Positions 644-25,389 of a stretch of DNA of 64,000 bases are shown piece after piece. Source of the DNA: Synechococcus sp. CCY 9618 (lineage in GTDB: Bacteria > Cyanobacteriota > Cyanobacteriia > PCC-6307 > Cyanobiaceae); contig NZ_JAFKRG010000048.1 in NCBI RefSeq assembly GCF_019038415.1, positions 124,001 through 188,000 of the forward strand. The letters are read 5' to 3'. The notes under the pieces were generated by a model. It saw nothing but the letters and a program-made list of their open reading frames with translations, did no database searches and was not told where the DNA came from. The position numbers and the translations under genes are program-made. How positions within the stretch are numbered: position 1 is the stretch's first letter; each line of letters begins with the position of its first letter.

Positions 644-714
644 CGGCTGGGGGAGGCCGGGCCTCCGGGGGGGATTCGTACAGTGTGGAGCCCCGTGCTT
701 CGCTGAGGACCTCG

Positions 715-1980
715 ATGGCAGGAACCGGCAACTCCGCGCCGCGCCAGCCCAGGAACCCCGCCCAGCGCCCGGTGTCGCCGGCGACGGGTTCCGGGACGGC
801 CCCTGCGCCCCTGCGCAAGCCCCCCCAGGTGCTGATGATCAAGAAGGAGGAGGAGGTGGCTGCCGAGACACTCCCCGCTCCCGCCGCTTCGAGCTCCGCT
901 GGTGCTGCCGCCCCCCCCGAGCGCCCCGCGCCTGTTCCAGCGGACGGGGACCGCTTCGATCCGGATGGGCTGGAGGGCCTCACCATGGCCGACCTGCTCG
1001 GCCCTGCTCCAGGGCGGGGCGGCCGCACGTCAGGCGCCCCGTCCGCCGCCGCCGGAACGGCCTCGGCCGCTGCCTCCGCCCGCACCGTCGACGACTTCGA
1101 TTTCGATGAGGAGGCCTTCCTCGCCGCCCTCGACGAGAACGCCCCGGTCGGCACCACCGGAGAGGTGGTGCAGGGGGTGGTGATCGGTCTGGAGAGCGAC
1201 GGCGTCTACGTGGACATCGGCGGCAAGGCCCCCGGTTTCATGCCCAAGAGCGAATGCGGCCTGGGGGTCATCACCAACCTCAAGGAGCGTTTCCCCAAGG
1301 GGCTGCCCATTGAGGTGCTCGTCACCCGGGAGCAGAACGCCGACGGCATGGTCACCATCAGCGCCCGGGCCCTGGCTCTGCGCCAGAGCTGGGAGAAGGT
1401 GCGCCAGCTGGAGAAGGACGGCAAGGCGGTGCAGGTCAGGGTGAACGGGTTCAACCGTGGCGGTGTCACCTGCGATCTGGAGGGACTGCGGGGGTTCATC
1501 CCCCGTTCCCAGCTCAACGAGGGCGAGAACCATGAGGCCCTGGTCGGCCAGACCCTGGGGGTCGCCTTCCTGGAGGTGAATCCCGAAACCCGCAAACTGG
1601 TGCTCTCCGAGAAACGGGCCGCCACCGCCGCCCGCTTCGCCACCCTGGAGGTGGGCCAGCTGGTGGAGGGCCAGGTGGTGTCGATCAAGCCCTATGGCTT
1701 CTTCGTCGACCTGGGCGGCGTCAGCGGTCTGCTGCATCACTCCTGCATCACCGGCGGCGCCCTGCGCGATCTGCGCGAGGCCTTCCAGCAGGGCGAGCAC
1801 CTCAAGGCCCTGATCACCTCCATCGATCCCGCCCGCGGGCGCATCGCCCTCAACACCGCCCTGCTGGAGGGGCCTCCCGGTGAACTGCTGATCGCCAAGG
1901 AGACCGTGATGGCCGAAGCCGCCGACCGGGCCCACCGGGCCCGCGCGCTCCTGCGTCAGCAGGAACAGGACGCGGGATGA
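715..1980 (+). CDS. rps1b: Ribosomal protein S1 homologue with three S1 RNA-binding domains
   Basis: A 421-residue protein. The first 140 or so residues are low-complexity (Pro/Ala-rich, then acidic). Three S1/OB domains follow, each recognisable by its start: GEVVQGVVIGLESDGVYVDI, then GKAVQVRVNGFNRGGVTCDL, then GQLVEGQVVSIKPYGFFVDL. Cyanobacteria commonly have a short S1 (Rps1a) and a second S1-like RNA-binding protein (Rps1b/Nbp1); the three-domain form fits this group, so the symbol is tentative. I chose the ATG at 715 because GAGGA lies 5 bases upstream; an in-frame GTG at 685 would add ten residues. The stop overlaps the next start by 4 bases, so translation is probably coupled to the Tab2-like gene. 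Confidence 0.85.
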   Translation: MAGTGNSAPRQPRNPAQRPVSPATGSGTAPAPLRKPPQVLMIKKEEEVAAETLPAPAASSSAGAAAPPERPAPVPADGDRFDPDGLEGLTMADLLGPAPGRGGRTSGAPSAAAGTASAAASARTVDDFDFDEEAFLAALDENAPVGTTGEVVQGVVIGLESDGVYVDIGGKAPGFMPKSECGLGVITNLKERFPKGLPIEVLVTREQNADGMVTISARALALRQSWEKVRQLEKDGKAVQVRVNGFNRGGVTCDLEGLRGFIPRSQLNEGENHEALVGQTLGVAFLEVNPETRKLVLSEKRAATAARFATLEVGQLVEGQVVSIKPYGFFVDLGGVSGLLHHSCITGGALRDLREAFQQGEHLKALITSIDPARGRIALNTALLEGPPGELLIAKETVMAEAADRAHRARALLRQQEQDAG

Positions 1981-2861
1981 GCGCAGCGATGCAGGTGGCG
2001 GGCCCCGACTGGGAGCTCGACTACTACTCCAGGCCGATCCTGGAGGCTGATGGTAAAAAACGCTGGGAACTGCTGATCTGCTCCACCGCCACGTCCCAGG
2101 CCCCGGCGGTCCCGTTCCGCTGGGTCAGGGACTGTCCGGCGTCCAGCGTCAATTCCCAGTGGCTGCGGGGGGCCATCGAAGCGGCCCTGGAAGCCAGCGC
2201 CGAACAGGGCTACGGACCGCCGCGGCGGCTGCGCTGCTGGCGGGGCTCGATGCGGACCATGGTGCAGCGGGCGGCGGAGGGCCTGGGGCTCGAGCTGGTG
2301 CCGAGCCGTCGCTGCTACGGACTGGTGGAGTGGCTGCAGGAACGGCAGATGAACGTCTACCCCCTGGAGCCCGGCTACATGGCCGGACCCCTGGCCCCCG
2401 CCCCCCAGCCGATCCCGCCGGTGGCGGTGCCCCTGCCGGAGGCGGCCCGGGGCGACAGCTGGAGCTGGGCCACCCTCAGCGCGGAGGCGTTGTCGGAAGC
2501 CGCCGGCTGGGAGATCGCCTTCCCCGGCCTGGTGGCCCTGCCTGCTCAGTTGGATCCCACCACCCCGGTGCCCGGCATCCGTCTGTTCAGCCGCCGGCGG
2601 GCCCTGGCCATCGCCGGCTGGCTGTCCGGCCTGGAGCCCGTGAGGCTCGAGGTCTGCTCCGGCCAGCTGGTGCTCGAGGCTGGCCTGGAGGATCGCTGGA
2701 TCCTGGCGCGCCTGCCGGAGCAGGAAGCGCAGGCGGCAGCGGCGGCCCTGGCCCAGGCCCGGGAGCGGGCCGGCGGGCTGCAGTTCATCGCCATCCAGGC
2801 GAGCGAGGAGGCCCCGGCTCTCGACGGCTTCTGGCTGCTGCGGGACCTGCCGGATGGCTGA
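1977..2861 (+). CDS. Tab2/Atab2-family RNA-binding protein (DUF1092)
   Basis: A 294-residue protein beginning close to the family signature DWELDYYSRPILEADGKKRW, followed by WELLICS, a conserved RRLRCWRGSM segment, and VEWLQERQMNVYPLEPGY. These are hallmarks of the cyanobacterial/plastid Tab2 (Atab2) family. The Chlamydomonas and Arabidopsis members bind mRNA and are needed for translation of photosystem I reaction-centre transcripts. A similar role here is inference. The ATG overlaps the S1-like gene stop (ATGA), and the end overlaps the start of pgeF by 8 bases, so the three genes look like one operon. Pairing an S1 protein with Tab2 suggests a joint role in translation initiation. Confidence 0.9.
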   Translation: MSAAMQVAGPDWELDYYSRPILEADGKKRWELLICSTATSQAPAVPFRWVRDCPASSVNSQWLRGAIEAALEASAEQGYGPPRRLRCWRGSMRTMVQRAAEGLGLELVPSRRCYGLVEWLQERQMNVYPLEPGYMAGPLAPAPQPIPPVAVPLPEAARGDSWSWATLSAEALSEAAGWEIAFPGLVALPAQLDPTTPVPGIRLFSRRRALAIAGWLSGLEPVRLEVCSGQLVLEAGLEDRWILARLPEQEAQAAAAALAQARERAGGLQFIAIQASEEAPALDGFWLLRDLPDG

Positions 2862-18929: not shown

Positions 18930-20099
18930 TCAGCGGCTGATCGCCAGGGGAGCGCCGAGGCCGCCGCGCACGTCCTCGGGGGCCAGACGACCGTCGTTGT
19001 CGGTGTCGAGGGCATCGAAGACCGCATCGCTGCCCAGCCACTCCTCCCGGGTGATGCAGCCGTCGCCGTCGAGATCGTTGAGCAGAAAGATCTCGTGCAC
19101 GGCGTGGGTGAAGGCGGCTCCGCCCTCGACCACCGCCAGCCGGTGGGCCAGCTGGCCCTCCAGGGTTTCGATGGCCTTGGAGAAGCCCCGGATCCCCTCG
19201 TCGAGCTTGTCGCTCGCCATGGTGTCCTCGGCCATCATGGTCCGGAACAGGGTCTCATCCACGTGGATCCGGGGTTCGCCGGCGGCCGGGTTGGCGGCGT
19301 CGAGGCGCCGCTCCAGCACGTCCTCGCTCTGGCGCAGCTGGTCCATCAGAGCCGGGGAGATGGTGAGCAGGTCGCAGCCCGCCAGCTCCACGATCTCGTC
19401 GATGTTGCGGAAGCTGGCACCCATCACCTCGGTGGCGTAGCCATGGGTCTTGAAGTAGTTGAAGATCCGGGTGACCGACAGCACCCCGGGATCCTCCGGG
19501 CCTGGATAGCTGTCGCGACCGGTGGATTTCTTGTACCAGTCGAGGATGCGCCCCACGAACGGGGAGATCAATGTGGCCCCGGCCTCGGCACAGGCCACGG
19601 CCTGGGCGAAGCCGAACAGCAGCGTCAGGTTGCAGTGGATGCCTTCCCGCTCGAGGATCTCTGCGGCCTTGATGCCCTCCCAGGTGGAAGCGATCTTGAT
19701 CAGCACCCGGTCCTTGCCGATGCCGGCCTGGTCGTAGAGGCTGATGAGCTTGCGGGCCTTGGCGATGGTCGCGTCGGTGTCGTAGCTCAGGCGGGCATCC
19801 ACCTCGGTGGAGACCCGGCCCGGCACGATCTTGAGAATTTCCTTGCCGAAGGTGACGCTGATCTCGTCGATCGCTTCGCGCACCACCTCCTCGGCCGGGG
19901 CGTCAGCGCCGATCACCTCCCGGGATTCGCGCAGGGAACGGTCGATCAGCTCCTGGTAGGTGGGGATCTGGGCGGCGGCCAGGATCAGGGAAGGGTTGGT
20001 GGTGGCATCCCGCGGCGTGAACTGACGGATGGCGTCGATGTCGCCGGTGTCGGCCACCACCACGGTCATGGCGGCCAGTTGTTCGAGAAGATTGGCCAT
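18930..20099 (-). CDS. tal: Transaldolase with C-terminal EF-hand pair
   Basis: A 389-residue pentose-phosphate enzyme. [10 protein letters not shown] and [18 protein letters not shown] (Schiff-base Lys) mark the TalB-type catalytic domain, about 330 residues. The last 55 residues add two EF-hand loops, [12 protein letters not shown] and [12 protein letters not shown], both with the Asp pattern and final acidic residue for calcium. EF-hand-tailed transaldolase also occurs in other marine cyanobacteria to my knowledge. Calcium control of the enzyme is inference. The ATG at 20099 opens [13 protein letters not shown] minus-strand TAGCGT (20138-20143) may be the -10. Confidence 0.95.
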
Positions 20100-20207: not shown

Positions 20208-22064
20208 TCAGGTGGCGGCGGGTTTTCCGGCCGGCCTGGGGACCGGCCGGGTGGGGGGCACCTTCTCGATCACCAGCAGGGCTTCGGCGATCTGGCGGGC
20301 CGCCGGCAGGGCCACGGTGGAACCGTAGGCGTTGCCCCCCTGGGGCTCGTCGACCACCACCAGCACCACGTAGCTGGGGTCCTCCGACGGCAGGATCGCC
20401 ACGAAGCTGCAGATCCTGGCTCCGGGGATGTAGACCCCATTGCGGGCCTTCTGAGCGGTGCCGGTCTTGCCGGCGATCCGGTAGCCGGGGATCTTCATGC
20501 CCTTGCCCGAGCCGTTCTCCACCACCGACTCCATCCAGTCGACGACGGTGCGTGTCACCTTCGGATCCAGCAGTTGCACCCCCGTGGGGGAGCTGGAACT
20601 GGCCAGGGCTTCGCCTGAGCGCAGGCCCCGGGTGATGTGGGGGCTCACCAGCCGGCCGCCGTTGGCGAGCATTGCATGCAGCTGCAGCAGCTTCAGAGGG
20701 GTGAGGGAGAACCCCTGACCGAAGGCGGCCACCGCGGGCTCGATCGGGGCCGAGGTGAATTCGCTGCGGCTCTTCAGCTGACCGGCCACGGCTCCGGGCA
20801 GGTCCGTGTCCGGCATGTCGTCGATGCCCATGGCATGCAACCAGTGCCAGAAGCGATCCCGTTTCACATTGGCCATCGCCCTGACCATGCCGACGTTGCT
20901 GGAGACCTGCAGCACGGTGGGGAAATCGATCAGGCCGTTGGCGCGGCGATCGTGGTTGAAGATCGGCCAGCCGCCGATTTCCAGCTGACCCACGTCGTTG
21001 ACCTTGTCGCCGGGGCGGATCGCCTTCTCCTGCAGGGCCAGGGCCAGGTTGATGGGCTTGAAGGTGGAGCCGGGTTCGTAGAGGTCCTGCACCGACCATT
21101 CCCGGAACAGTCCGGGGTTGTAGCTCCAGAAGCGGTTGGGGTCGTAGCTGGGCGTGGAGGCCAGTGCCAGGATCTCGCCGTTGCGGGCGTTCATCACCAG
21201 GGCGGCCCCGCGTTTGGCTTTCCATTGCTTCACCTGCTTGCCGAGCGCCTGCTGGGCCACCTGCTGCAGGCGGGCATCCAGGGTGAGCTGCAGCCGCAGG
21301 TCGTCGCCGTACAGCGCTCCGGCCTGGAGCCCTTCCGGCAGAGGGGTGCCGTCGGCCCCGCGGCGCATGCTCAGGGTCACCTCCTGGCGCCGCAGGTCCC
21401 GATCCCGGCTCTGTTCCAGGCCGGCCTGGGCCACCCGTTCCAGGTTGAGGAAGCCCACCACGTTGGCGAACAGCTGGCCCTGCGGGTAAACCCGCTGGGG
21501 ATAGGCCTCCAGGTCGAGGCCGCTGATGCCCAGCGCCCTCACCCGGTGGGCCGTTTCCGGATCCAGGCCGGTGGCGAGCTTGACGCCGCTGCGGCGGCTG
21601 CCGATGGTCCTGACCAGATCCTCCGTGGGGCGGGCCAGCACCACGGAGAGCTTTCGGGCCACGTCGGAGGCAGGGCGGATCTGCTGGGGTTCGTCGCCGG
21701 GCAGGTTGAAATAACGGGGATGGGCCCAGAGCGTGTAGCGCTCCTCGTCGAGGGCCACCAGCCGACCCATGCGATCCACGATGGTGCGGCGCTTGCCGAT
21801 GGGGGCGATCGACTGGGTCTGGATGGCCAGGGCCCGGGCCTGAAGCCGGGGGGCCTGCACCACCTGCAGCCAGGCCAGCCGGCCGGCCAGGCCGAGCAGC
21901 GCGGCGCAGAGCAGCAGGTACACCGCCAGCATCCTGCCGGGCGGGATCGGCTGGATCTCCACCACCCGACGTCCCTTCGATCCCGGCGACCGGCGGGGGG
22001 GCGGGCTGCCCGCAGTCGGTGGGGGACCGGAACCGCCGGCCCTCGGGCGGAAGGCGGCAGGCAT
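20208..22064 (-). CDS. ftsI: Penicillin-binding protein 2 / FtsI-type peptidoglycan transpeptidase
   Basis: 618 residues. A Pro/Gly/Arg-rich cytoplasmic leader is followed by one membrane helix (MLAVYLLLCAALLGLAGRL) and a non-penicillin-binding module. The transpeptidase domain carries the Ser motif EPGSTFKPIN (STFK), SSNVG, and KTGTAQ. It makes septal peptidoglycan cross-links. The ATG at 22064 overlaps the stop of the FtsL-like gene (TGATG). The frame stays open upstream, but only the part from 22064 looks like FtsI. Gene order ftsL-like then ftsI matches the dcw arrangement of other bacteria. Confidence 0.93.
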   Translation of the reverse strand: MPAAFRPRAGGSGPPPTAGSPPPRRSPGSKGRRVVEIQPIPPGRMLAVYLLLCAALLGLAGRLAWLQVVQAPRLQARALAIQTQSIAPIGKRRTIVDRMGRLVALDEERYTLWAHPRYFNLPGDEPQQIRPASDVARKLSVVLARPTEDLVRTIGSRRSGVKLATGLDPETAHRVRALGISGLDLEAYPQRVYPQGQLFANVVGFLNLERVAQAGLEQSRDRDLRRQEVTLSMRRGADGTPLPEGLQAGALYGDDLRLQLTLDARLQQVAQQALGKQVKQWKAKRGAALVMNARNGEILALASTPSYDPNRFWSYNPGLFREWSVQDLYEPGSTFKPINLALALQEKAIRPGDKVNDVGQLEIGGWPIFNHDRRANGLIDFPTVLQVSSNVGMVRAMANVKRDRFWHWLHAMGIDDMPDTDLPGAVAGQLKSRSEFTSAPIEPAVAAFGQGFSLTPLKLLQLHAMLANGGRLVSPHITRGLRSGEALASSSSPTGVQLLDPKVTRTVVDWMESVVENGSGKGMKIPGYRIAGKTGTAQKARNGVYIPGARICSFVAILPSEDPSYVVLVVVDEPQGGNAYGSTVALPAARQIAEALLVIEKVPPTRPVPRPAGKPAAT

Positions 22065-22537
22065 CAGTAGCCGGCCGGGATGGCCCGCAACTGGAAGCCG
22101 GCGAGCAGGGGCAGGGGTGAGCGGGGACGGGGGGCCTTCGGTTCGGGCAGATGGATGAGCTTCTCGCTGCTGGTGGGCTCCAGCAGCCCGGGCCGCCGCA
22201 CCACACTGAGGTGATGCTGCTCGAGGACAGCGGAGGCCTCCTGCATCCGGTGCTCCAGGGTCTTGGAGGCCTCCAGCTGGGTGAAGCTGTGGGCCCACTG
22301 GTTCTGCCAGTGAAGGGTCAGGGCACTGAGGCCGAGCATGGAGAGACCCAGTCCCACCAGGGCACCGGTGCTGATCCGATGCAGGCTGGCGAGCCAGGGG
22401 GCCTGGCGTTCGATGCGGCGGGCCGACAGCGACCCCTCGATCAGCCGCAGGGAACGCAGTTCCGGCAGGCGCTTCTGGCTGCGTGGGAGGGGGGAGGCGG
22501 CCAAGGGACCTGACGGGACTCTGCGCAAGTGAACCAC
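22064..22537 (-). CDS. FtsL-like single-pass membrane protein upstream of ftsI
   Basis: 157 residues. A basic cytoplasmic N-terminus of about 55 residues is followed by one membrane helix (about 56-77), then a heptad-like stretch (QLEASKTLEHRMQEASAVLE) and a Pro-rich tail. Size, topology and position (stop overlapping the ftsI start) are those of FtsL, the divisome bitopic protein. There is no strong sequence signature, since FtsL is poorly conserved, so the assignment is inference from context. Confidence 0.65.
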   Translation of the reverse strand: MVHLRRVPSGPLAASPLPRSQKRLPELRSLRLIEGSLSARRIERQAPWLASLHRISTGALVGLGLSMLGLSALTLHWQNQWAHSFTQLEASKTLEHRMQEASAVLEQHHLSVVRRPGLLEPTSSEKLIHLPEPKAPRPRSPLPLLAGFQLRAIPAGY

Positions 22538-22562: not shown

Positions 22563-24035
22563 TCAGTCGGCGAGAAAGAGGAGATTCATGAAGGTCAGGC
22601 CGTTCCAGAGGGCATGCATCAGCACGGCACTGGCCAGACGGCCGCTGCGCCAGCGCAGCCAGCCCAGCCCCAGACCCAGCACGAACAGGGGGGCCAGTTC
22701 CCCCAGGCTGAGGTGGGCCACGGCGAACACCGCCGCACTCAGCACCACCGCCGCCGGCCCCCCCAGCCTCTGACCCGCCACCGGCAGCAGCACGCCGCGG
22801 AAGAGGGTCTCCTCGAACAGGGGCGCCACCAGCAGGGCGGTGAAGGCGAAGCAGGCGAGAGCCAGGGGATCGGCACTGGTGAGCACCAGTTCCAGCAGGG
22901 GATTGCTGCCGCCCGGATCGGCCCAGATCCGGTCGATGGCCCAGCTCGAAGCCGTCACCACCGGCAGCACCATCAGCAGGGTGACCACGGCGCCGGCGAA
23001 GGCCGTGGCGATCGGTCGCCAGTGCCACTGCAGCCAGCCAGCCGCCGGCCTGGCACTGGGGCCCGGCAGCAGCAGGGCGAGCAGCAGCAGGGGAACGGCC
23101 ATCAGGGCCAGGTAGAGCACCAGCACCTCGATGCCCTGGCTCAGGGCCCTGGGGGTGGCCAGACGCTGCACCAAGGCCTGGAGAGCTGGTTGCACCAGCA
23201 GGGGCACCACCACCTCGCCGAGCACCACGAAGCCGCCGGCGATCAGCAGGATCACGTCGACGGGGGCCAGGGGTGGGCCCTGCAGCGGAGCCGCGGCCGG
23301 CAGTCTGCGGCGCCAGGCCAGCCAGAGCTGCCTGAGCAGCAGCACGACCCCCACGAGCAGGAAGAGAAGGGGCAGGAGGGTCACCGCCAGAAGCTTCAGC
23401 ACCAGCCCCAGCGAGCGCTGTTCCGCCGGGCACTCCCCCGGGTCTCCGGGAAGCTGCTCACAGACCAGCTGTTGCACGATCACGGGCGCCGACCAGGGGG
23501 CCAGCAGCTGCTGCCGCTGACCGGCGTCGATGCTGCGACCGGCCAGCAGGGCCTGGATCAGGGGGCGCCGGGGGGCATCCACCTGGTTCAGCAGCAGCCC
23601 GAGATCGGCGTCGCCGGTCGTGGTGGTGGCGGTCTCTCCGGAGCGCTCCAGCAGGGCGAGCTCCAGACGCCGCAGGGCCCTCGCCGGTTCCTCCGAGGCC
23701 TCCATCTGGCGCCGGAGCTCCTCCGTGAGGGTGCGGCGCGGCGTCTCCCCGGCCAGGGCCGGCTGCAGTCCCTCCGGCAGGGACCCGGCCGCCAGGGCCG
23801 ACAGTTCCAGCTGCCGCAGGCTGAGGGAATCCACCACCGACGGCCGGTCCAGGCTGTCGATCAGCCCTCCGACCCAGAGCAGGCCACTGAGGGCAAGGCT
23901 GAGCAAAGCCAGCGGCACCTTCCAGCCCGCAGGCGCAGAGGGTGGTCCGGATCGGGAAGGGGGACCGCTCAACCGGAGCACCTGGAGGGCATGGGGCCAT
24001 CGATTCTCCCCTGCGCCGGTGCCGGGCGGTCCCAT
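22563..24035 (-). CDS. CPBP-family intramembrane glutamic protease
   Basis: About 490 residues. One N-terminal membrane segment (KVPLALLSLALSGLLWVGG) is followed by a 200-residue extramembrane region, then several helices. The CPBP/Abi motif is in the C-terminal third: FEETLFRGVLLP (EExxxR) and, later, VAHLSLG and MHALWNGLTF (HxxxN). Such enzymes process membrane proteins; in cyanobacteria and plants the family is broad. I chose the ATG at 24035; the frame is open above it. The start is divergent from the next gene, 29 bases away. Substrate unknown. Confidence 0.85.
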   Translation of the reverse strand: MGPPGTGAGENRWPHALQVLRLSGPPSRSGPPSAPAGWKVPLALLSLALSGLLWVGGLIDSLDRPSVVDSLSLRQLELSALAAGSLPEGLQPALAGETPRRTLTEELRRQMEASEEPARALRRLELALLERSGETATTTTGDADLGLLLNQVDAPRRPLIQALLAGRSIDAGQRQQLLAPWSAPVIVQQLVCEQLPGDPGECPAEQRSLGLVLKLLAVTLLPLLFLLVGVVLLLRQLWLAWRRRLPAAAPLQGPPLAPVDVILLIAGGFVVLGEVVVPLLVQPALQALVQRLATPRALSQGIEVLVLYLALMAVPLLLLALLLPGPSARPAAGWLQWHWRPIATAFAGAVVTLLMVLPVVTASSWAIDRIWADPGGSNPLLELVLTSADPLALACFAFTALLVAPLFEETLFRGVLLPVAGQRLGGPAAVVLSAAVFAVAHLSLGELAPLFVLGLGLGWLRWRSGRLASAVLMHALWNGLTFMNLLFLAD

Positions 24036-24063
24036 ACGATGGCCCCCCCGCGCCACAGGCACC

Positions 24064-25389
24064 TTGCCCCTTCGCATCGTGCTGGTCCGCCATGGCCTCA
24101 GCAGCTTCAACCTGGAGCAACGCATCCAGGGCCGGGACGACCTCTCCAGCCTCACCGAAGCGGGCCAGCTCCAGGCCCGTCGCACGGGAGAGGCCCTGAG
24201 GGAGCTTGGCTTCCAGGCGGCCTACAGCTCACCCCTGCAGCGGGCCAGGGCCACGGCGGAGCTTCTGCTGGCCAGTCAGGGAGCGGATCTGGCGCCCGCC
24301 TTCCACGACGATCTGCTGGAGATCGATCTGGGCCCCTGGAGCGGGCTCCTGCGCAGCGAGCTGCGGGCCCTGGATCCGGAGCAGGAGCGCCGCTGGCGCG
24401 AAGCCCCGGAAACCATGGAGCTGCGGCGGGCCGACGGCAGCGTCTACCGACCGGTGCCGGAGCTGCTGGAGCAGGCGGCCCGCTTCGCCGACGGGCTGCT
24501 GGCCCGCCACGGCGACGGCGACACGGTGCTCGTGGTGGCCCACAACGCCATCCTGCGCTGTCTGGTGCTGCACCTGCTCGGGCTCCCGGCCAGCGGCTTC
24601 CTGCGCCTGCGGCTCGACAACGCCGCCATCTCGGTGCTCAATCTGACCCGCGCCGGGGGTGGTCGCCCCCAGGTGCAGCTGGAGTCGCTCAACGGCACCG
24701 CCCACCTGGGGACGGCCCTTCCCCCCGCCGGCCCCGGCTGCCGCCTGCTGCTGGTGCGCCACGGCGAAACCGACTGGAACCGGGAAGGGCGTTTCCAGGG
24801 CCAGATCGACATCCCCCTCAACGCCCATGGACTGGCCCAGGCGGAGGCGGCACGGGCCTTCCTCGCCCCGGTACCCATGCAGCGGGCCTACAGCAGCGAC
24901 ATGGCCCGCCCCCTGCGCACGGCGGAGGTCATCCTCTGCTCCCATCCCGGCGTGCCGCTCACCACCACCCGGGGCCTGCGCGAGATCGGCCACGGCCTCT
25001 GGGAGGGCCGGCTGGAGAGCGAGATCGCCGCCGGCTGGCCCGATCTCCTGGCCGACTGGAAGCGCACCCCCCAGACCGTGCAGATGCCCGAAGGGGAAAC
25101 CATCGCTGAGGTCTGGGACCGGTCCCTGGCGGCCTGGAACCGGATCGTCGCCGGCCTGGGGGCCCGGGAGACGGCCCTGGTGGTCGCCCACGACGCCGTC
25201 AACAAGACCATCCTCTGCGCCCTGCTGGGCCTCAGCCCCGCCGACATCTGGATGGTGAAACAGGGCAACGGCGGCGTCACCGTGGTGGACTATCCCCGCG
25301 GGATTGCTGCTCCTCCGGTGGTGGCCAGCCTCAACCTCACCGCCCATCTTGGGGGTGTGCTCGACCGCACCGCCGCCGGCGCCCTCTAG
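24064..25389 (+). CDS. Histidine phosphatase family protein with two phosphoglycerate-mutase domains
   Basis: About 441 residues from a TTG at 24064 (MPLRIVLVRHGLSSF); no ATG or GTG lies closer to the first domain. Two tandem domains each begin with an RHG motif: VLVRHGLSSFNLEQRIQGRD and, after a linker, LLVRHGETDWNREGRFQGQ. Each also has the second His segment (VVAHNAILRCL and VVAHDAVNKTI). Cyanobacterial relatives include metal-independent phosphoserine phosphatases, so serine synthesis is one plausible role. The first domain keeps its catalytic residues too. Function remains a family-level inference. Confidence 0.85.
   Translation: MPLRIVLVRHGLSSFNLEQRIQGRDDLSSLTEAGQLQARRTGEALRELGFQAAYSSPLQRARATAELLLASQGADLAPAFHDDLLEIDLGPWSGLLRSELRALDPEQERRWREAPETMELRRADGSVYRPVPELLEQAARFADGLLARHGDGDTVLVVAHNAILRCLVLHLLGLPASGFLRLRLDNAAISVLNLTRAGGGRPQVQLESLNGTAHLGTALPPAGPGCRLLLVRHGETDWNREGRFQGQIDIPLNAHGLAQAEAARAFLAPVPMQRAYSSDMARPLRTAEVILCSHPGVPLTTTRGLREIGHGLWEGRLESEIAAGWPDLLADWKRTPQTVQMPEGETIAEVWDRSLAAWNRIVAGLGARETALVVAHDAVNKTILCALLGLSPADIWMVKQGNGGVTVVDYPRGIAAPPVVASLNLTAHLGGVLDRTAAGAL

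Follow-up and report, generated by a model that had tools for sequence, protein, structure and literature searches.

A putative, highly divergent FtsL encoded upstream of ftsI in Synechococcus sp. CCY 9618 and its conserved C-terminal tyrosine

The gene pair and the encoded protein

The DNA analysed here, hereafter the window, is a stretch of 64,000 nucleotides from Synechococcus sp. CCY 9618 (contig NZ_JAFKRG010000048.1, positions 124,001 to 188,000). On its minus strand, an open reading frame (ORF) encoding 157 residues (22064-22537, GTG start at 22537), whose product we call P0001, immediately precedes ftsI (20208-22064, minus strand), the gene for a class B penicillin-binding protein of 618 residues, the septal transpeptidase. 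The stop codon of the former and the start codon of the latter overlap in a TGATG (22062-22066, minus strand), of which the A is common to both ORFs. A sequence-only reading of this DNA had considered the 157-residue product a good candidate for the division protein FtsL from its position, size and bitopic topology, and these features are borne out: the ORF ends within the start of ftsI, the protein has a single hydrophobic segment and ftsI lies directly downstream. From the ORF itself, the conservation of its family and the match of the family profile to proteins of the ftsL slot, we designate the gene an ftsL candidate and regard P0001 as very probably a highly divergent cyanobacterial FtsL.

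The assignment of ftsI is given by the Pfam domains PF00905 (E 7.6e-66) and PF03717 (E 9.9e-9), and 241 of the 242 genomes sampled from the GTDB class of the window's genome, Cyanobacteriia (hereafter the class), have an ftsI match with an E-value of 1e-60 or lower. Alr0718 of Anabaena is FtsI (PMC7766704 and PMC8566892). The start of P0001 may lie further downstream than annotated, at an in-frame TTG (22504) that would yield a protein of 146 residues. This start is favoured because the column of residue 12 in A3, our 71-sequence family alignment, is a nearly invariant methionine, a column that depends in part on the rule by which the start codons of the aligned rows were assigned.

P0001 has one predicted transmembrane segment (residues 55-73; 22319-22375, minus strand; hydropathy peak 1.70), which is followed by a coiled-coil-like periplasmic helix (residues 74-114; 22196-22318, minus strand) carrying the conserved Trp81 and Leu88, both present in at least 90% of alignment rows. 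A single-chain AlphaFold2 model joins the two in one unbroken helix spanning residues 47-114, with a block mean pLDDT (predicted local distance difference test) of 93-98 for residues 51-110 and low confidence in the N- and C-terminal parts. Beyond the membrane segment, the modelled helix would be compatible with a coiled coil. After it come a post-coil segment (residues 117-133; 22139-22189, minus strand), which hhalign aligns with the region around the LGM-x-x-P of other FtsL proteins, and the C-terminal motif Pro-x-Gly-Tyr-COOH (residues 154-157; 22067-22078, minus strand), as defined by the A3 column counts.

This topology is shared by the family. Hydropathy analysis of the 71 A3 rows gives one segment in 65, none in 5 and two in 1, with 75-97 residues after the 19-residue hydropathy peak. 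In addition, the net charge before the segment exceeds that after it in 55 of the 71 rows, which supports a cytoplasmic N-terminus.

Family distribution and gene order

As a single query, P0001 matched 103 of the 242 class genomes, while the A3 profile matched 241, with two matches each in four genomes (G069, G077, G081 and G208) and one in each of the rest. Since 57 of the 71 A3 rows were drawn from the same sample, about 184 of these finds are independent. In the only genome missed (G128), ftsI lies near the end of its contig. Identity to P0001 among A3 members ranges from 12 to 83%. Of 194 genomes from the phylum, the profile of a smaller family alignment of 24 sequences (A1) matched 84, all within the class, and none outside the class at E <=0.01. 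Fifty-one of the 60 loci retrieved for inspection (L093-L152) yielded a family member; the remaining nine cover DNA upstream of ftsI in which it is absent.

The gene order proposed by the sequence-only reading as a check across cyanobacteria was found widely. Counting as adjacent a gene on the same strand and no more than 1.5 kb upstream of ftsI, the family gene precedes ftsI in 118 of the 147 genomes with both genes placed among the matches listed (34 further genomes are without a listed place for ftsI and 61 without one for the gene), so that homologues do not lie away from ftsI in most genomes. Of the 29 exceptions, 22 belong to a single family of genomes (f22), in which the pair is together in none of the 22 placed members. 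In one f22 genome (L151), an ORF that looks MurD-like by eye immediately precedes ftsI, with ftsL located elsewhere. Of 19 named cyanobacterial loci with ftsI (L192-L210), 17 likewise have the family gene in the slot, and two (L196 and L206) show no sign of it within the 2 kb preceding ftsI.

In four loci (L133, L135, L136 and L209, the last from Candidatus Cyanaurora vandensis) the order is rsmH, family gene, ftsI; L136 and L209 represent the same organism. We take the four to be deep-branching cyanobacteria. The identity of rsmH is confirmed by the Pfam family MraW in L133 and L209 (E 7.4e-96 and 2.1e-97, respectively), and the order mraZ-rsmH-ftsL-ftsI was seen in E. coli. In a further locus (L128), rsmH (654-2374, plus strand) precedes the family gene, though ftsI is about 350 kb away, an arrangement suggestive of a halfway stage in the dispersal of the division gene cluster.

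In the window, the gene upstream of the ftsL candidate encodes an Rce1-like membrane protease of the CPBP type (22563-24185); directly downstream of ftsI lies the gene for a transaldolase with two C-terminal EF-hand matches (18930-20099, minus strand). With these neighbours, rsmH is not adjacent to the pair, and the window retains only the ftsI side of the classical rsmH-ftsL-ftsI slot.

Profile comparisons with FtsL and FtsB

The comparison with FtsL proceeded through proteins occupying the ftsL slot in other classes of the phylum. Nine of 20 fetched loci had a readable slot protein (L073, L075-L078, L080, L081, L086 and L092; alignment A2), and rsmH, recognised by eye, precedes eight of these nine, L073 being cut by a contig end. 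Two other loci (L074 and L079) show an rsmH-like ORF with no slot ORF picked, and the reading of the ftsI neighbourhood in nine loci of another class with small genomes (family f42: L082-L085 and L087-L091, of which L083 has only 716 bases) gave no FtsL-like ORF. DivIC nevertheless matches many f42 genomes above its cut-off, at places away from ftsI. An FtsB/DivIC alignment from the same other classes (A4) and the cyanobacterial AtpF, which likewise combines a membrane helix with a coil, served as controls.

Our results show that A3 matches A2 with an hhalign probability of 95.1% (E 3.1e-8, score 52.2) over 85 columns, which run from the membrane helix as far as the post-coil segment, compared with 1.9% for A3 against A4 and 3.0% against AtpF. 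When the columns of A2 were shuffled 200 times within each of four segments, the mean score was 17.3 (standard deviation 4.1) and the maximum 31.9. Slot proteins of other phyla gave a second reference, made of 40 ORFs from L213-L270 retained by a filter on hydropathy and length, with rsmH not identified in all 40; L211, L212, L218 and L228 were left out, as were 19 of 80 loci without a passing ORF, two of them cyanobacterial. Against this set, A3 scored 88.6% (E 2.7e-6), A2 98.4% (E 4.9e-15) and AtpF 2.9%.

Searches with hidden Markov models (HMMs) among 3737 six-frame ORFs from the 80 named ftsI loci agree with this picture. At E <=1, the A3 model gave 20 matches, all of them ftsL-slot ORFs: 17 cyanobacterial, including L209, the organism of an A3 training row, and three from other phyla, namely Terracidiphilus (L269, 9.9e-6), a member of the Acidobacteriaceae (L257, 8.3e-5) and Massilia (L254, 1.8e-4). 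With the A2 model, 46 of 48 matches fell on slot ORFs, and eight of the 17 cyanobacterial slot ORFs were recovered (E 2.3e-4 to 0.023). Outside the slot list, the A2 and 40-protein models matched an ORF directly before ftsI that the filter had missed (L227, 8-272) and one long ORF of L268; the A2 model also matched one ftsI ORF (L199, E 0.0083).

Several results speak against an FtsL assignment. No family, FtsL and DivIC included, was matched by P0001 in Pfam and NCBIfam; neither FtsL nor DivIC was among the nine families listed in a Pfam scan of the 24 A1 members; and profile searches of the PDB with A1 and A2 matched no division protein. Foldseek, run with the one-helix model of P0001, found no PDB chain, so that structure comparison contributes nothing. 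From the 17 slot ORFs of cyanobacteria, the HMM of the 40 proteins recovered only four, with a strong match to a single one (L205, 4e-5), and the first family profile reached four of the nine A2 slot proteins (E 1.1e-4 to 2.1e-3), missing five; no other ORF of the 20 other-class loci matched it at E <=10. Helices of this kind have some background similarity, since one of the 200 shuffles exceeded 50% probability (55.2%) and AtpF matched A4 at 28.7%. To these points must be added the 29 placed genomes without adjacency, and the match of A4 to the 40 slot proteins at 97.5%, because of which the 40-protein profile cannot separate FtsL from FtsB. Each single comparison is weak; taken together, descent of the P0001 family from FtsL is well supported, a link reached at the level of sequence by reading the rsmH-ftsI slot and by comparing profile with profile.

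The last of these points bears on the principal alternative, in which P0001 would be the FtsB/DivIC partner and would pair with another FtsL. The two protein types are related, as seen in the match of A2 to A4 (91%), and the similarity of A3 to the 40 proteins alone is therefore not decisive between them. Against this alternative, A3 scored 1.9% with A4 but 95.1% with A2, and the gene occupies the rsmH-ftsI slot in the four loci described above. We consider an FtsB identity of P0001 improbable.

A candidate for the cyanobacterial FtsB came from elsewhere in the class. A search of 116 class genomes with the A4 profile yielded four matches, all weak (E 0.0013 to 0.042), two of which (L178 in G072 and one in G112) belong to one bitopic coiled-coil family. 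With the L178 protein (L178:1429-1992, minus strand) as the query, this family was found in 190 of the 242 class genomes, and its profile (A7; further loci L303-L322) matched the 40 FtsL-slot proteins at 81.7% and A4 at 57.6% (27.6% for four A4 rows), compared with 24.1% for A3, 5.6% for A2 and 4.9% for AtpF. Among the 3737 ORFs, the A7 HMM had three matches (E 5.4e-4 to 0.053), all ftsL-slot ORFs. No member of the family was found in the 64-kb window, and the L178 query had no match in the window's own genome, while three of the 31 genomes of its family were matched; visual inspection of the ORFs listed for eight loci showed no common neighbour gene. From its sequence matches, the A7 family is a candidate FtsB, with a weaker case than that for FtsL.

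Given the preferred assignment of P0001 to FtsL, the behaviour of domain models may be relevant to earlier reports. Pfam PF04999 (FtsL) was over its cut-off in none of 117 genomes of the phylum; three weaker matches below it come from a single other family, and two of these coincide with a DivIC match; among 14 control genomes the model matches only E. coli and Deinobacterium. Four of the nine A2 proteins match Pfam DivIC below the cut-off (E 3.8e-5 to 1e-3), as does E. coli FtsL (0.0045). At E <=0.01, DivIC matched 11 of the 14 control genomes, including S. elongatus and two archaea, and for this reason its weak matches in large genomes were not used.

The narrowness of the Pfam FtsL model may explain why a cyanobacterial FtsL has been called absent. 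In this regard, a 2020 review gives FtsL and FtsB as absent from cyanobacteria (PMC7766704), and a 2016 paper as not detected there (PMC4748335). Among the features tabulated for the draft genome of Prochlorothrix hollandica, ftsL is listed together with ftsB, ftsA and ZipA (PMC5069947). In the accessible sections of three further papers (PMC9880817, PMC7381316 and PMC8406250), FtsL occurs only in a reference or as E. coli or B. subtilis background. A literature search with little reach into subscription journals returned no paper in which FtsL is named as the product of the gene that precedes ftsI in cyanobacteria.

C-terminal tyrosine, proposed role and comparison with known systems

The last residue is tyrosine in all 71 A3 rows. 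It is preceded by glycine in 54, alanine in 14, serine in 2 and asparagine in 1, and proline stands at position -4 in 47, giving a typical end of Pro-x-(Gly/Ala)-Tyr-COOH; column entropy, which is 0 bits at -1, reaches 3.7 bits at -5. Every C-terminus read ends in tyrosine, the count covering 80 distinct genomes (from sets of 30 and 51 loci) plus 17 named loci. In the 30-locus set only ORFs ending in tyrosine were kept, and all 30 loci gave one; the 51-locus and named sets were unfiltered. We also considered the tyrosine as a by-product of the TGATG overlap and rejected this explanation because the residue persists with TAA or TAG stops and in genes distant from ftsI (L106 and L152).

Among the A2 slot proteins, all nine have an aromatic end (phenylalanine in seven, tyrosine or tryptophan in the others), which lies outside the columns aligned by hhalign, and none of the 40 slot proteins of other phyla has an aromatic C-terminal residue. 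Slot proteins ending in Ser-Gly-Tyr were observed in two metagenome-assembled genomes labelled Proteobacteria and Actinobacteria (L211:1229-1822 and L212:1290-1850, both plus strand), in whose genomes the A3 profile has no match at E <=0.1. Either these phylum labels are wrong or the aromatic end reaches beyond the phylum.

These observations bear on a second alternative, by which the family would be a cyanobacterial invention sharing no descent with FtsL that moved before ftsI and regulates FtsI. The very low sequence similarity, the lack of a Pfam match and the lineage-specific tail fit such an origin. The confinement of the A3 matches among the 3737 ORFs to ftsL-slot ORFs, the rsmH-gene-ftsI order in the four loci and the aromatic end of all nine A2 proteins argue against it, and we hold it to be a shade less probable than an FtsB identity. 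That the ORF is a spurious frame in an extended ftsI region is scarcely credible: DNA rich in guanine and cytosine yields many long overlapping ORFs, and the ftsI frame stays open across the entire ftsL candidate, but the protein is conserved class-wide, with a constant last residue, also far from ftsI.

Together, the profile homology with its controls, the synteny and the order rsmH-gene-ftsI support the FtsL assignment and allow us to propose a model. A short N-terminal part of the FtsL candidate would lie in the cytoplasm, followed by a single membrane helix, the periplasmic helix and the post-coil segment; the protein would close with a proline-rich tail, some 25 residues long, that terminates in Tyr-COOH. 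As in FtsL of other bacteria, the periplasmic helix would pair with an FtsB-type partner and the post-coil segment would contact FtsQ and the pedestal of FtsI; the resulting FtsQLB-type complex would then recruit and activate FtsW-FtsI for septal peptidoglycan synthesis. A division partner common to the phylum, most likely FtsI or FtsQ, could offer a fixed pocket for docking of the conserved aromatic end.

We put forward tentatively, judging it slightly more likely to fail than to hold, the broader notion that cyanobacteria possess a complete FtsQ-FtsL-FtsB core missed by sequence searches, in which an obligatory C-terminal aromatic residue on a flexible tail provides septal wall synthesis with a lineage-specific handle for docking or licensing. 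To our knowledge, docking or licensing by a C-terminal aromatic residue is known for no other FtsL. Should virtually all cyanobacteria possess FtsL, the core of the phylum's septal-synthesis switch would be ordinary and open to testing in model strains; most of these would be expected to carry the gene beside ftsI, and the constant tyrosine would offer a single-residue target for functional tests.

Compared with FtsL of E. coli and other bacteria, P0001 is alike in gene slot, size and the succession of an N-terminal membrane helix and a periplasmic helix, and differs in having no match to the Pfam FtsL model and in the eroded LGM signature after the coil; the proline-rich tail with Tyr-COOH further sets the cyanobacterial family apart from FtsL of other phyla. 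The A2 proteins are closer, sharing the slot before ftsI, the profile match and the aromatic C-terminus, although most of them keep a signature of the A-x(2-3)-LGM/LGL type and their end is mostly phenylalanine instead of tyrosine. With FtsB/DivIC, P0001 has in common a short, bitopic structure with a periplasmic helix and a relationship to FtsL, the differences being the gene position and the low A3-A4 match. A further protein to be compared is CyDiv (All2320 of Anabaena), which is proposed, in the text available of PMC4748335, as a late divisome protein of the FtsB/DivIC type occurring in filamentous cyanobacteria only. According to that description, CyDiv has an N-terminal coiled coil and a membrane segment near its C-terminus, the reverse of the arrangement in P0001 (PMC4748335).

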